DNA of 64,000 nt, taken from the NCBI RefSeq assembly GCF_000179615.1, contig NZ_AEDD01000010.1, positions 167,501-231,500 on the forward strand. The letters run 5' to 3'. Made by a program: the position numbers and the translations under genes. The notes beneath the pieces were generated by a model that had not been told where the DNA came from, made no database searches, and worked only from the letters and a program-made list of their open reading frames with translations. The stretch is from Paenibacillus curdlanolyticus YK9 (GTDB lineage: Bacteria > Bacillota > Bacilli > Paenibacillales > Paenibacillaceae). Below, in pieces: positions 25,620 to 62,735 of the stretch (the stretch's first letter is position 1; each line of letters begins with the position of its first letter).

Positions 25620-25815
25620 CATTGTAGTTCGTGCAATGATCACCCTCTCCAACTCCCTCCCCTACTGCTGCCATTGCATTCTATACAATGAGACACCGTG
25701 TCCATCGCCTTAACTAGCGCAAAGGGGCACCTCCGAACGTTTGGCATTGTACAAATTGCAAGGACACCTTGCTATACCGGGAGACAGCCGCCTTTCCGTT
25801 GCACATTTTGCAATG
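25620..25815. repeat. Phased palindrome array A (four 19-bp sites)
   Basis: Sites at 25620-25638, 25672-25690, 25745-25763 and 25797-25815 match CRTTGYA-N5-TRCAAYG; examples are CATTGTAGTTCGTGCAATG and CATTGCATTCTATACAATG. Starts are 52, 73 and 52 bp apart. The DNA between them shows no similarity to the spacers of arrays B and C. No gene is convincing in 25550-26295. Confidence 0.75.
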
Positions 25816-40363: not shown

Positions 40364-40539
40364 TTGCGTTATTTGAACCATACTCCATACTTTCCGGCTG
40401 AATTCTGAGCAAAAATGAGAAAACCTCTCATAAACAACCGGAATCCCTCCCAATTCCATGAGAATTATTAGAAATTCGACAGTTAGGAAGGATTTTCTTC
40501 AAAAAATACGAATTATTATTCCCTGTACATAAAAAAGCT

Positions 40540-40674
40540 GCCGAATTTCAGTGTACGAAAACGGGGGAACCACTCCGGGTTAATTGATCCCGACCGCGCT
40601 TATTGGATATTCAAGCACGGCCAGAGGGTATCATAGGTGACCTTCAACCGAACCCCACAGCTAACCTCGTAGGC
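40540..40674 (+). promoter_or_regulatory. c-di-AMP riboswitch (ydaO/yuaA type), first copy
   Basis: Conserved elements AACGGGGGAACC, GGGTTAATTG and the 3' signature CCGAACCCCACAGCTAACCTCGTAGGC are all present. The 3' end is 21 bases before the GTG of a wall hydrolase gene. No terminator lies between, and the conserved ACCTTC inside the aptamer could pair with the GGAAGG Shine-Dalgarno. Confidence 0.92.
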
Positions 40675-40694
40675 AATGGAAGGAGCACTACAAC

Positions 40695-41303: not shown

Positions 41304-41397
41304 CCACTCTTTCTCAGAAAACTAATAAAATTTTACCAGTAAAATCGGCAGGACTATTTAAGATTTTATCGAATCTTTAGATTGTCATACAAAATTT

Positions 41398-41530
41398 GCC
41401 GAATCATCGCCTTGGCGGTGAACGGGGGAACCATTTTTAGGGTGAATTGACTCCGCCTCTCGTCCTATCGACGTGCGCCGCAGGAATCATAGGGAACCTT
41501 CAACCGAACCCCACAGCTAACCTCGTAGGC
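41398..41530 (+). promoter_or_regulatory. c-di-AMP riboswitch, second copy
   Basis: AACGGGGGAACC, GGGTGAATTG and CCGAACCCCACAGCTAACCTCGTAGGC, the last identical to the first copy, lead to GGAAGGAGCACC and a TTG start. Again no terminator lies between aptamer and gene. 41208-41550 otherwise holds only the preceding terminator. Confidence 0.93.
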
Positions 41531-41550
41531 TCTGGAAGGAGCACCACCTT

Positions 41551-43854: not shown

Positions 43855-44049
43855 CGTTGCGCTTTGTACAATGAGAACGGTGCGATTGCACGATTTCGAA
43901 GGGTATCCTTGCAGTTTATACAGCGAGATACGGTCGACATGCTCTCCAAAGATCCGAAGAATAGTCAACCCGCTTTCCCCATTGCACTAAATGCATGGCG
44001 CCTTCCTATTTTGTGCGCCCGATGAGATTTCCTTGTAAGAAATACAATG
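43855..44049. repeat. Phased palindrome array B (four 19-bp sites)
   Basis: Sites at 43855-43873, 43907-43925, 43980-43998 and 44031-44049 follow the CRTTGYA-N5-TRCAAYG pattern with some decay (for example CCTTGTAAGAAATACAATG). Starts are 52, 73 and 51 bp apart, as in arrays A and C. A weaker extra copy is at 43884-43902. Nothing else is supported in 43844-44132. Confidence 0.7.
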
Positions 44050-51352: not shown

Positions 51353-51409
51353 GCATACCCCCCCCCCCCCGATGTCGTTGTACTTTGTGCAACAACATCG
51401 GGGGGATGC
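51353..51409. repeat. Long hairpin with a 13-C tract around the first site of array C
   Basis: GCAT..CCCCCCGATGT..GTTG pairs with CAAC.ACATCGGGGGGATGC. Its centre is the array C palindrome CGTTGTACTTTGTGCAACA (51376-51394). The left arm includes 13 consecutive C (51358-51370). Confidence 0.7.
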
Positions 51410-51569
51410 TTGATGAAACGCGCTGCCATTGCAGTCTGTACAATGGCAGCACTTCTGATATGCTTAATTCGCCATATTGCAGAAAAATGAGCGTAGCTCA
51501 TTGCACGAATTACAACGGAGGCGCGTATGCAGCCGATTAGCGGGTCATGTCATTGCACAAACTGCAACG
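51376..51569. repeat. Phased palindrome array C (four 19-bp sites)
   Basis: Sites at 51376-51394, 51427-51445, 51499-51517 and 51551-51569 match CRTTGYA-N5-TRCAAYG almost perfectly, for example CATTGCAGTCTGTACAATG. Starts are 51, 72 and 52 bp apart. Extra symmetric flanks surround the first two (GCTGC..GCAGC at the second). A half-matching copy is at 51475. It ends about 130 bp before the DUF559-like gene. Confidence 0.78.
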
Positions 51570-51635
51570 AACCCTTCTCTTACGCACAAACAAGTGGTTT
51601 ACCCCATCAACTGGTGCTATACTACTTGCAGACGA

Positions 51636-51676
51636 AGAACGTCCTTGAGCCTCCTTGGCGCAAGGGCGTTCTTTTT
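51636..51676 (+). terminator. Terminator upstream of the DUF559-like gene
   Basis: AGAACG.CCTT pairs with AAGG.CGTTCT, followed by five T. It ends any transcript from array C just 8 bases before the next Shine-Dalgarno. Confidence 0.75.
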
Positions 51677-51699
51677 GTGCTATTAAAGGAGGGTATTAC

Positions 51700-52368
51700 G
51701 TGGATTTCGAGCAAGCATATGGCCAATTTCTGGAGCATCACACGACAAGCAGGGCAGACGAACGCCGCGGCCGGCTGGTCCGTGGGCATCAATATGCTGA
51801 GAAGCTGCTGCTCCAGCAGGTCTGGTGGCCGCTATTCGGCACGCTGGAGCATCTTCATCCGGAGTATGAAATTTATGATTGGAATCGCAAATCCCAGTTT
51901 CTTGACTTTGCATTCCTGCCAGCATACGGCAAATTCGGCATCGAATGCGACGGGTTTCAAAGCCATGTGAAAGATATGGATCGCGAGAAATTCAGTTATT
52001 CGCTGAATCGAGACACTTTTTTAACCGGAATGGGTTGGAAAATGCTTCATTTTTCCTTCGATGATATTCAAAATCGCCCGGAAGTTTGCCGCTTGCTTCT
52101 CCAGTTAGCGATCGGACCCTACTTGCTGCGCAATGCGCCGGTTCGCCCCGAGTCAATGGTAGAGAAGGACATCCTTCGTCTAGCATGGTCACTGGCTCGT
52201 CCGATCCGCCCCAAAGATGTGATCGAGCGATTCGGGGTCAACTTCCGTACAGCCCGCAACTGGCTCCGGGCCCTAACCGACAAAGGACTGCTCCGACCGA
52301 TAGAAAACCGGACCAATCATGTCCGTGCCTACGCTTTGAAAGCGGAGCCTAAAGAGCTGCTACTATAG
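51700..52368 (+). CDS. DUF559-like PD-(D/E)XK nuclease with C-terminal winged helix
   Basis: 222 residues from GTG behind AAAGGAGGG. The region QFLDFAFLPAYGKFGIECDGFQSH ... DREKFSYSLNRDTFLTGMGWKMLHFSFDDI has the D..xExDG..H..R...L...GW pattern of DUF559/Vsr-like endonuclease folds, though the family assignment is by eye. The last 70 residues (PKDVIERFGVNFRTARNWLRALTDKGLLRPI) form a winged HTH. It stands between palindrome array C and the single palindrome with tandem repeats downstream, suggesting a functional link. No methyltransferase or other restriction gene is adjacent. Confidence 0.65.
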   Translation: MDFEQAYGQFLEHHTTSRADERRGRLVRGHQYAEKLLLQQVWWPLFGTLEHLHPEYEIYDWNRKSQFLDFAFLPAYGKFGIECDGFQSHVKDMDREKFSYSLNRDTFLTGMGWKMLHFSFDDIQNRPEVCRLLLQLAIGPYLLRNAPVRPESMVEKDILRLAWSLARPIRPKDVIERFGVNFRTARNWLRALTDKGLLRPIENRTNHVRAYALKAEPKELLL

Positions 52369-52459
52369 CACAGCCATAGGCTCGGTTTAGAGATACGCCA
52401 ATACGCCAGCCTGTGGCTGCGGGCTGTGGGGCTTTAGAGTTGCCCTGGCCGTGGATACA

Positions 52460-52507
52460 CTTGCACTTGCACTTGCACTTGCACTCGCATTCGCACTTGC
52501 ACTTGCA
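52460..52507. repeat. Hexamer tandem repeat CTTGCA, eight units
   Basis: Eight consecutive 6-bp units, six identical to CTTGCA and two variants (CTCGCA, TTCGCA). Its TTGCA core equals the half-site of the dispersed palindrome. Confidence 0.9.
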
Positions 52508-52526
52508 CCTATGGCGGCTATGGCTT

Positions 52527-52545
52527 GATTGCATTTTGTACAATG
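52527..52545. repeat. Single dispersed palindrome (site D)
   Basis: GATTGCATTTTGTACAATG matches the array consensus. Exactly 52 bp further (52579) the left half CATAGCA recurs imperfectly, so this may be the remains of a fourth array. Confidence 0.6.
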
Positions 52546-60074: not shown

Positions 60075-62735
60075 CTATTTAAGCAAAATTCGCACAAGCC
60101 CATCGCTTATCCGTTTCATCACCCGATAACCATCAGCCGCTGCCGTGGCAATTCCCTCGTCATTCGGCTTGCAATAGCCATTAACCAAGCAGGTGCCGTC
60201 GTCGCGAACGATTAGCTTGCCGAGCATGCCGACAGCTACCCACTCCGGACGCTCCCTGCGGGGCACATATGTCTGTTCGGGATCGTAATCCGGATTCAGA
60301 ATCCGGTCGCCCTGCTCATCCTTCAATATGCGCCCGTACTCATCCTTTAGAAATAAGCCCTGCCAGCGCAGATCACTGGAATCTGCCACGAAAGCAGGCG
60401 TGGCGCTTGTTATGCCAAGAATATACGAATCCGAGGCAGATGCCCGCATAATCCGATCTCCGCTCAAGGTTACAAAATAGCCGACGTCGATCGGCTGCCC
60501 GTCTGCTGTCTCGAACATTTCTGCATAGTCCGCAGCAGCTGGGGCTAGAACCGCGCCATCCAAATAGAGATTGCCGCCCGGCCCATCCAATATAACAGAG
60601 TTGAGCGTCGGCCCGATCGCCAAGCCGTTGGCGACATGAAAGGAATTCGCGAACCGAGCTGTACCGTTTTCCCCCATAATATAAGCGCCAGTAAGTCCGC
60701 CGGTATTCGTATTCGAGCCGCCGGCGAAGGAATTCAAAGCATTCGCTACCGTGTTGCTGCCTGCTGAATGGGAGTTATCGCCGCTTGCCGTTGTGACGTT
60801 GCCTTCGGCATGGGCATTAATTCCGCTCGCAATCGTATTGGTGCCTTCGGCATGCGAGTTGGCGCCATTCGCTTGCGACGCAAGCCCTTCCGCATGGGAA
60901 CGGTCGCCTAAGGCAATCGTCGCCTCGCCCTCCGCGTGCGAAGAGCCTCCCGTTGCCTGCGTATTCAGGCCCTCGGCATGTGCGGCATTCCCGCCTGACA
61001 CCGTACCGCTTCCCTCCGCATGAGAGCTGCCGCCATTGGCCTGCGTGCCCAACCCTTCGGCATGGGAACGAATTCCGTTCGCAATCGTTCCTTCTCCCTC
61101 GGCATGCGAGTTCATCCCCACCGATTGCGAGTTCAAGCCTTCGGCATGCGATGCGTCACCGATTGCCCTTGCGCCCAAACCCTCGGCATGAGACCGCTGC
61201 CCGCTGGCAATCGTCCCTTCGCCCTCCGCATGGGCAGAAATCGCGGTTGCTTGCGTAAACGCTCCCTCGGCATGTGAATTGTCGAGGGATGCCAACGTGT
61301 TGAAACCTTCCGCATGCGCTTGCGGCCCAGTCGCTCGCGCGCCGCCGCCTTCCGCATGCGAATTGTTGCCCGTCGCTTGCGTGCCGGAGCCTTCCGCATG
61401 GGCATTGCTTGCGCTTGCGATCGTGCCGGAGCCTTCGGCATGCGCGCTGCTGCCGCCCGCCGACGTTCCGCTGCCTTCCGCATGCGCGCTAGTCCCGCCC
61501 GCCGTCGTCGTATCGCCTTCGGCATGCGAATTGTTGCCATTCGCCGCCGTATTGACGCCTTCGGCATGCGCGTTGGTTCCATTCGCCGTCGTACCAGCGC
61601 CTTCCGCATGCGAATTCGCTCCGTTAGCAGTCGTGCCAGTACCCTCGGCGTGCGAATTCGCTCCATTCGCCGTCGTGCCGCCGCCCTCGGCATGCGAGTT
61701 ATCCCCCTGCGCCGTCGTCCCTGCGCCCTCCGCATGTGAATCATTGCCTATAGCGCGCGTCCCCGCACCCTCGGCATGCGAGCCGGTACCGCTTGCCGTC
61801 GTGCTGTCTCCCTCCGCGTGCGCATTCGCGCCGGAGGCCAACGTCCCATTGCCTTCCGCATGCGAATTGTCGCCAGTAGCCATTGTGCTGTCGCCTTCCG
61901 CATGCGAATTAGCGCCTAAAGCTACCGTAACATTACCCTCCGCATGTGAATTGACGCCGTTAGCCATCGTGCTATTGCCCTCGGAATGGGCAAACTCTGC
62001 ATTCGCCTGCGTCATGCCGCCCTCAGCATGAGCGCCATGGCCGTTTGCAATCGTCCCTTCCCCTTCGGCATGCGAAGCCTCTGCGATGACAGTCGTCAAC
62101 GTATCGCGCCCTTCGGCGAAGGAGCAGGCGCCGAGTGCGACCGCATTACAGCCCACGGTAATCGGCGGACCCTGCGGCCCAGCAGGACCAGTAGCTCCGG
62201 CTGGACCCGGAGGCCCCTGCGGTCCGACTAGCCCCTGACTAATAATCGTATTGAGGCTATTATCGATGTGCTGCACGATTTGCAGAATCTGATTGAGAAT
62301 CTCCTGATTGACTTCCAGTCGAACATTAATCGATTGCACATTGAACATGAACACCTTCAGCGTAACGGCAATGGATACTGCAATCATCGGGGTAACGAGC
62401 AGTTCGGCGAGCACAAGTTCGAGCACTGCAAGCCGGATAGCACGCTCGGCGGCGCCCGGGCACAGCTTGTGGAGCAGCTTATTCAGATTGGACAGCGCGC
62501 GCCGCAGCTTCTTCAGCGCCTCTGGGTCGCGATTCATCAGCACCAGAGGGACGAGTGCATCTATAAGTTGAAGCAAACGCCGCAGACGCTGCGCTTCCCG
62601 CCTCGTTATTGTTATGTGAACGCATGACTTGGCTTTAATAACGGGCTTGCAGCAGCAGCGTTTCTTTGGAACGCGGCATATTTTTTTCCGTCTCAACTTG
62701 CGACGATTCGCTTTGTGTACCTTACATCCACCCAT
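60075..62735 (-). CDS. Collagen-like/YadA-head-like repeat protein with peptidase G2 domain
   Basis: 886 residues. Basic Cys/Lys-rich N-terminus (CKVHKANRRKLRRKKICR), hydrophobic helix (about 105-130), coiled-coil-type helix, a short collagen-like stretch (GPQGPPGPAGATGPAGPQGPP), then about 31-33 copies of a 14-residue repeat with core SHAEGxGTxAxGxN, as in trimeric YadA/Hep-Hag heads. The C-terminal about 180 residues (NLYLDGAVLAPAAADYAEMFE ... VTLSGDRIMRA) match Peptidase_G2, an intramolecular chaperone that self-cleaves. Likely a trimeric fibre on the spore or exosporium surface. GGGAGGTG precedes the ATG. Confidence 0.85.
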   Translation of the reverse strand: MGGCKVHKANRRKLRRKKICRVPKKRCCCKPVIKAKSCVHITITRREAQRLRRLLQLIDALVPLVLMNRDPEALKKLRRALSNLNKLLHKLCPGAAERAIRLAVLELVLAELLVTPMIAVSIAVTLKVFMFNVQSINVRLEVNQEILNQILQIVQHIDNSLNTIISQGLVGPQGPPGPAGATGPAGPQGPPITVGCNAVALGACSFAEGRDTLTTVIAEASHAEGEGTIANGHGAHAEGGMTQANAEFAHSEGNSTMANGVNSHAEGNVTVALGANSHAEGDSTMATGDNSHAEGNGTLASGANAHAEGDSTTASGTGSHAEGAGTRAIGNDSHAEGAGTTAQGDNSHAEGGGTTANGANSHAEGTGTTANGANSHAEGAGTTANGTNAHAEGVNTAANGNNSHAEGDTTTAGGTSAHAEGSGTSAGGSSAHAEGSGTIASASNAHAEGSGTQATGNNSHAEGGGARATGPQAHAEGFNTLASLDNSHAEGAFTQATAISAHAEGEGTIASGQRSHAEGLGARAIGDASHAEGLNSQSVGMNSHAEGEGTIANGIRSHAEGLGTQANGGSSHAEGSGTVSGGNAAHAEGLNTQATGGSSHAEGEATIALGDRSHAEGLASQANGANSHAEGTNTIASGINAHAEGNVTTASGDNSHSAGSNTVANALNSFAGGSNTNTGGLTGAYIMGENGTARFANSFHVANGLAIGPTLNSVILDGPGGNLYLDGAVLAPAAADYAEMFETADGQPIDVGYFVTLSGDRIMRASASDSYILGITSATPAFVADSSDLRWQGLFLKDEYGRILKDEQGDRILNPDYDPEQTYVPRRERPEWVAVGMLGKLIVRDDGTCLVNGYCKPNDEGIATAAADGYRVMKRISDGLVRILLK
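60690..62120 (-). repeat. Internal 42-bp coding repeats (about 31-33 units)
   Basis: Each unit encodes 14 residues with the core SHAEG. Units differ at many synonymous and nonsynonymous positions, so copies have been kept by selection and not just by recent expansion. Confidence 0.9.

Follow-up and report, generated by a model that had tools for sequence, protein, structure and literature searches.

A dispersed four-palindrome element in Paenibacillus curdlanolyticus and its candidate partner, a nuclease with a winged helix

Several described systems share features with the locus studied here, and the closest of them are RAYT transposases with their REP repeats, homing endonucleases of the EDxHD type and MITEs. 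In RAYT/REP systems, according to the part of PMC2817692 used here, one or few genes per genome lie beside copies of a dispersed intergenic palindromic repeat, the abundance of the repeat follows the presence of the gene, and gene and repeat co-diverge. The REP itself is described in parts of PMC2817692 and PMC3733652 as having a GTAG-type head.

In this study, we analysed a stretch of 64,000 nucleotides (the window) from P. curdlanolyticus YK9, a member of the Paenibacillus group with a genome of ~5.4 Mb (5.45 Mb). An earlier note on this DNA had pointed to a nuclease gene next to an array of palindromes and had likened the pair to RAYT and REP. We found this analogy to be apt as regards the system's logic, but neither for the enzyme nor for the DNA. 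As in the published portions on RAYT with REP/BIME/REPIN that we used, the gene is flanked by its own repeat, the abundance of the repeat follows the gene, and the two diverge jointly. However, the enzyme is instead a Vsr/EDxHD-like nuclease with a winged helix. The Y1 (HUH) transposase domain (PF01797) is absent from the Pfam matches of the window protein and from the 23 families matched by any of its 87 relatives (E <= 0.01), and this domain content rules out membership in RAYT/REP. The element also differs from REPs in being a fixed four-site unit whose whole-turn spacing points to double-stranded DNA, with no hairpin-like covariation, and no common head of the GTAG type given in those portions of the sources was seen by eye in the outer flanks of 30 elements.

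The best structural match of the nuclease domain, obtained on a second look, was the catalytic domain of I-Bth0305I (3r3p; Z 10.9, rmsd 2.4 A, 97 residues), an enzyme which we take to belong to the EDxHD group. The catalytic fold is thus common to both, and the residues D69, E82 and H89, together with R104, form an active-site-like set that is invariant across the 87 relatives. In contrast to EDxHD homing endonucleases, the gene shows no sign of a surrounding intron or intein and has no phage homologue at E <= 1e-5, the protein has an added C-terminal winged helix, and in place of a single allele its putative cognate sites comprise tens of dispersed arrays. MITEs are likewise short, non-coding, intergenic and dispersed with inverted-repeat ends; unlike them, the present element shows no target-site duplication (30 elements), consists of four palindromes at helical spacing and has a partner that is not a known transposase. 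We found nothing on a nuclease-array pairing in an open-access collection of papers, which includes few subscription titles, and the words Paenibacillus, Firmicutes and TTGCA are absent from the main text of PMC3733652.

The gene, its protein and the arrays of the window

The features of the window to which the following text refers are these:

25622 to 25813, strand not applicable: array A, a four-palindrome element of 192 bp with spacings of 52/73/52
43857 to 44047, strand not applicable: array B, a four-palindrome element of 191 bp, with one mismatch in three of the four sites
51378 to 51567, strand not applicable: array C, a four-palindrome element of 190 bp, with sites at 51378, 51429, 51501 and 51553
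51652 to 51666, plus strand: terminator-like hairpin, located after array C and before the gene
51700 to 52368, plus strand: nuclease-winged helix gene, 222 amino acids, GTG start
52240 to 52242, plus strand: codon of Asn181; this residue lies directly N-terminal of the predicted recognition helix 182-194 and varies with the palindrome core
52458 to 52508: tandem repeats of CACTTG with many TTGCA half-site words
52529 to 52543: single site 3' of the gene, an exact match to TTGYANNNNNTRCAA
52586 to 52652: tandem repeats of TCTTGCAGGT, likewise with many TTGCA half-site words

The layout given in the earlier note, in which the gene directly follows array C after a terminator and is itself followed by a further site and TTGCA-rich tandem repeats, was confirmed, with a terminator-like hairpin in the place of the terminator. 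All four sites of array C are exact TTGYANNNNNTRCAA cores, and 133 bp separate the end of the array from the GTG at 51700, which by reading is preceded by a ribosome-binding-site-like AAAGGAGGG. Over the whole window, palindrome matches with at most one mismatch number 18 versus 7.0 ± 2.6 expected, and 18 was reached in 0 of 100 shuffles. At the position of the single site (52529), the genomes G022 (locus L021) and G003 (locus L022) have a complete four-site array. Array B apparently has no counterpart in the corresponding intergenic region of G022, a boundary between convergent genes where the flanks are too diverged for exact ends to be placed.

Some further repeats and signals were noticed in this DNA. 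The TTGCA-word tandem repeats of the window sit just downstream of the gene, where G022 has its four-site array, and an array of another genome (G013, locus L210) is likewise followed by (CACCAG)n. A run of C at 51360-51371 marks the outer edge of array C and lies within a long imperfect hairpin. Elsewhere in the window, two c-di-AMP riboswitches (40529-40690 and 41387-41546) are found on the same strand less than 1 kb apart, and 42-bp tandem repeats around the word GGCATGCGAATT occupy 61306-61982.

The protein is composed of a nuclease domain (residues ~20-144), a linker (145-152) and a winged helix (153-213), and its predicted structure (mean pLDDT 87.4) places residue 181 immediately before the recognition helix. 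Structural comparison bears out the proposed combination of a nuclease with a winged helix: besides the I-Bth0305I-like match, the C-terminal part aligns with many winged helices of the MarR/ArsR/BlaI type (Z ~9-10.5). A plain Foldseek search gave zero matches at E <= 0.001. The label DUF559-like, which had also been given to the gene, suits most of the relatives but fits the window protein less well. A region of similarity is common to this protein and to the Pfam families DUF559 and REase_MTES_1575, which are matched by 67 and 68 of the 87 relatives, respectively (E <= 0.01), but the window protein itself is under both curated cut-offs (19.2 bits versus 20.6 for DUF559, and 20.8 versus 38.2 for MTES_1575).

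The nearest named loci are those of Paenibacillus sp. MMS18-CY102 (85% protein identity) and P. kobensis (77%), and three more relatives with 27-31% identity are encoded in the same genome. An origin from a phage or plasmid was considered and rejected, with no phage record and a single match to a Paenibacillus megaplasmid (39%). Assignment to a known defence family was also rejected, as only weak matches, to the winged helix, were obtained.

A dispersed element of four palindromes

Array C represents a 190-193 bp element that is dispersed in the genome and built from four palindromes TTGYA-N5-TRCAA at spacings of 51-52, 72-74 and 51-52 bp. The complete four-site element was present at 29 of the 31 own-genome loci examined, and its length was 190-193 bp in 29 of 30 complete elements and 202 bp in the remaining one (locus L017 was included in this survey of architecture and excluded from the flank and end analysis of 30 elements). 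Over the whole genome, 112 pairs of sites lie 49-55 bp apart, versus 0 for a reversed control pattern. Based on a rough ORF survey, most arrays are intergenic and many lie between convergent genes. Conservation of the sites lies in their symmetry and spacing, and the architecture is fixed though the spacers have diverged. Similarity between loci was detected in 112 of 465 locus pairs and is typically limited to about -100 to +101 around the centre of the element, which implies that the copied unit ends near the outer palindromes; an apparent subfamily, by reading, reaches ~20 bp further on one side.

When loci of many genomes were considered, neighbouring sites were 51-52 bp apart in 188 of 254 cases, and the remaining spacings had peaks at 62-63, 73 and 103-104 bp; the ranges 54-59 and 64-71 bp were empty. 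One helical turn of B-DNA is 10.4 bp, and the site spacings are close to whole turns. Furthermore, the variable positions of the two half-sites pair at roughly the frequency that follows from column composition (40, 36 and 78 sites from three genomes). At core position 4, pairing was 0.53 observed versus 0.59 expected in the 40 own sites, and in G201 it was above expectation at some positions and below at others. Whole-turn spacings together with the lack of half-site covariation thus favour two-fold symmetric protein sites on double-stranded DNA over selected hairpins of the REP kind. A hairpin or RNA reading of the palindromes was ruled out by the lack of covariation and by Rfam, in which no family matched the arrays at gathering scores.

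Gene and arrays co-occur, and the recognition helix changes with the site

We examined the distribution of gene and arrays in 245 genomes of the family Paenibacillaceae, with close homologues defined by E < 1e-75. Paired TTGYA arrays were present in 53 genomes, 44 of which have a close homologue, compared with 25 of the 192 others (Fisher p 7e-22, uncorrected for relatedness). In several of these 25 gene-bearing genomes without TTGYA arrays, a TTGGA-N4/5-TCCAA core was found de novo beside the gene (the fragment L005 gave no match in this search), and TTGGA arrays (at least five hits, both strands) are present in 15 of the 25. The own genome has 0 TTGGA hits. With both core types taken together (at least two TTGYA pairs or at least five TTGGA hits) and stratification by genus, cognate arrays were observed in 52 of the 62 gene-bearing genomes versus 4 of the 79 without the gene (CMH p 2e-18; hand-entered counts, seven genera only, comprising 141 of the 245 genomes). 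The suggestion in the earlier note that the nuclease may recognise the palindromes is well supported by this co-occurrence across genome sequences.

In the earlier note it had been asked whether arrays are always accompanied by the gene; this is so in most array genomes but not in all. Nine genomes with TTGYA arrays lack a close homologue, among them G018 (24 pairs), G014 (11) and G155 (10), and G180 has TTGGA arrays and no close homologue. It is possible that the gene was recently lost from G180 and G018, or that their arrays are served by a more distant paralogue. At the thresholds used, neither array type was seen in 10 of 69 gene-bearing genomes.

Gene and arrays are also adjacent. At least two sites lie within 800 bp of the gene in 54 of 70 close homologues (at least 58% identity) and at least one site in 62 of 70. 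The density of sites was 2.21 per kb near the gene versus 0.20 per kb at 1.3-2.5 kb, with the far flank of the same loci as the control and with a generic motif (YTGNAN4-5TNCAR) that was set after lineage variants had been seen and is partly post hoc. A stricter, motif-free detector of palindrome pairs was positive at 19 of 70 loci, versus 0 in shuffles and 1 of 78 far flanks. Among the paralogues with 40-58% identity, 2 of 20 had at least two sites, and most of this branch seems not to participate.

In most loci the array lies downstream of the gene; it is located just upstream in L002, L033 and L056, and arrays flank the gene on both sides in L021 and L022 and mostly on one side elsewhere. 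The upstream arrays, as well as the resemblance of the winged helix to MarR/BlaI-type repressors, would be in line with autoregulation, in which palindromes by the gene would be operators through which the protein controls its own promoter, with the copies elsewhere arising as by-products. However, the prevailing downstream position, the tens of dispersed copies of the four-site element and the separation of array C from the gene by a terminator-like hairpin all speak against this explanation, which we consider very unlikely.

The recognition helix and the site show correlated change. This was observed with 113 non-redundant proteins (at least 190 aa and at least 55% identity), in which homologues with at least two sites were labelled by palindrome core; 28 with fewer than two sites and 3 mixed ones were excluded from the counts, and the alignment (A1) was made without L025 and L067 (broken frames), L086, L078 and L041. 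Of the 222 columns, residue 181 is the most informative about the core (mutual information), with the next-best columns not far behind. Asn or Ser occupies this position in 61 of 63 proteins with a TTGYA core and Asp in 18 of 19 with a TTGGA core, the exceptions being L042 and L047 (Asp with TGTA) and L115 (Asn with TTGGA). Recognition of C by Asp and of A by Asn would be in line with what is known of DNA-binding proteins. Genome-wide arrays change in line with the type of residue 181, and two genomes contain two types of gene. In G019, which has a D181 gene and an N181 gene (L024 and L050), ~62 TTGGA hits per strand and 30 TTGYA pairs were found, and G201, with an S181 gene and an N181 gene, has two site classes in which core position 4 is 77 C/7 T versus 9 C/22 T (Fisher 7e-11).

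The trait at residue 181 switched nine times on the nuclease-domain tree, where supported branches give 2 independent pairs, and four times on the full-protein tree (1 supported). Because independent switches are so few, power is too low and phylogeny-corrected significance was not reached; the putative residue-181 code rests on these few switches. The relatedness of the genomes and the small number of switches in this test are what could be said for shared ancestry, that is, for gene and arrays being merely co-inherited in some lineages. On the other hand, the association holds within seven genera, adjacency is about 10 times the background, and the two genomes with two gene types have two matching site types, so such a coincidence appears extremely improbable.

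Other types of sites were noticed beside some relatives. Downstream of a homologue with Gly181 (L088), there are six AAAAGCTGCACCACAGCAGCTTTT-type palindromes ~51 bp apart, which represent another site type. The 30% paralogue L003 of the own genome (G000:C37, near 387138-387770) has tandem 51-bp units on both sides (L003 901-1480 and 2161-2620), and its flanking palindromes, ATAGGGAACAT...ATGTTCCCTAT and ATAGGGCACA...TGCCCTAT, differ greatly from the array C type.

Mobility of the element and a possible role of the nuclease

Target-site duplications were sought in 30 elements over 3528 combinations of length and end offset, and none was detected (the best at 4 bp was 3 of 30). No clean insertion of a whole element against an empty site was seen when G013 was compared with G196, and G201 with six relatives. 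The former comparison revealed gain of elements (tandem) and partial loss; in the latter, the elements are mostly shared at orthologous places, with piecewise gains and losses. G201 also has a separate 214-bp repeat without palindrome sites (L251 9201-9414), which is present in many copies in relatives and for which clean empty sites are found in G133, G083, G221 and G125.

The orthologous placement among six relatives would suit a host function, in which a domesticated DNA-binding nuclease (e.g. in chromosome organisation or repair) works on arrays that the host uses and so keeps. The fixed architecture despite diverged spacers, and the place of the gene beside gdhA, which is conserved in L021/L110 and L022/L111, agree with such a function. 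It is harder to reconcile, however, with the number of TTGYA pairs, which ranges from 0 to 112 within one genus, with the joint absence of gene and arrays from many relatives and with the presence of two site classes in one genome. We regard a host function as rather unlikely. The occurrence of one four-site unit at many unrelated places, with its ends at palindromes, argues for mobilisation of the unit; we infer that the nuclease is the best candidate for the mobilising enzyme, and mobilisation of the palindromes by it is plausible.

Our preferred explanation is a sequence-specific nuclease with a dispersed cognate four-palindrome element, and we assign it as a whole a probability of roughly 0.6. 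Judging from the compared sequences, the winged helix very probably binds TTGYA-N5-TRCAA, and it would do so as a dimer on double-stranded DNA. Its target would be the element of four palindromes at whole helical turns, so that four dimers could be arranged on one face of the DNA and, being in phase, may bring their nuclease domains together (synapsis). Cutting or nicking at the elements by the nuclease would then result in their dispersal and maintenance, as RAYT serves REPs; the role would be RAYT-like, but with an unrelated enzyme and with recognition of double-stranded DNA. The chances seem evenly balanced that dispersal and maintenance of the elements in this way are, or once were, the work of the nuclease. 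Tight control would be needed, since a nuclease active at tens of sites should otherwise be toxic.

We also suggest, with somewhat more reserve, that the pair could be a mobile or gene-drive-like system of a new class, in which an EDxHD-type nuclease with a winged helix disperses a 190-bp element via sets of dimers bound to double-stranded DNA. Lineages would re-tune the pair through residue 181, with Asp suited to TTGGA and either Asn or Ser to TTGYA; paralogues in one genome would run orthogonal element families, and distant paralogues such as L003 would extend the system to a large family of pairs.

The novelty of these observations rests on the pairing of nuclease and element, which appears to be a new type of partnership between an enzyme and a repeat. 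If this is true, the REP/RAYT way of life in bacterial genomes would have evolved once more, on the basis of an unrelated enzyme and of double-stranded DNA recognition. Nature would then offer a series of nuclease-site pairs whose recognition code can be read. In addition, a large class of intergenic repeats in Paenibacillus would be explained, and the spread of repeats without a classical transposase would become a directly testable question.
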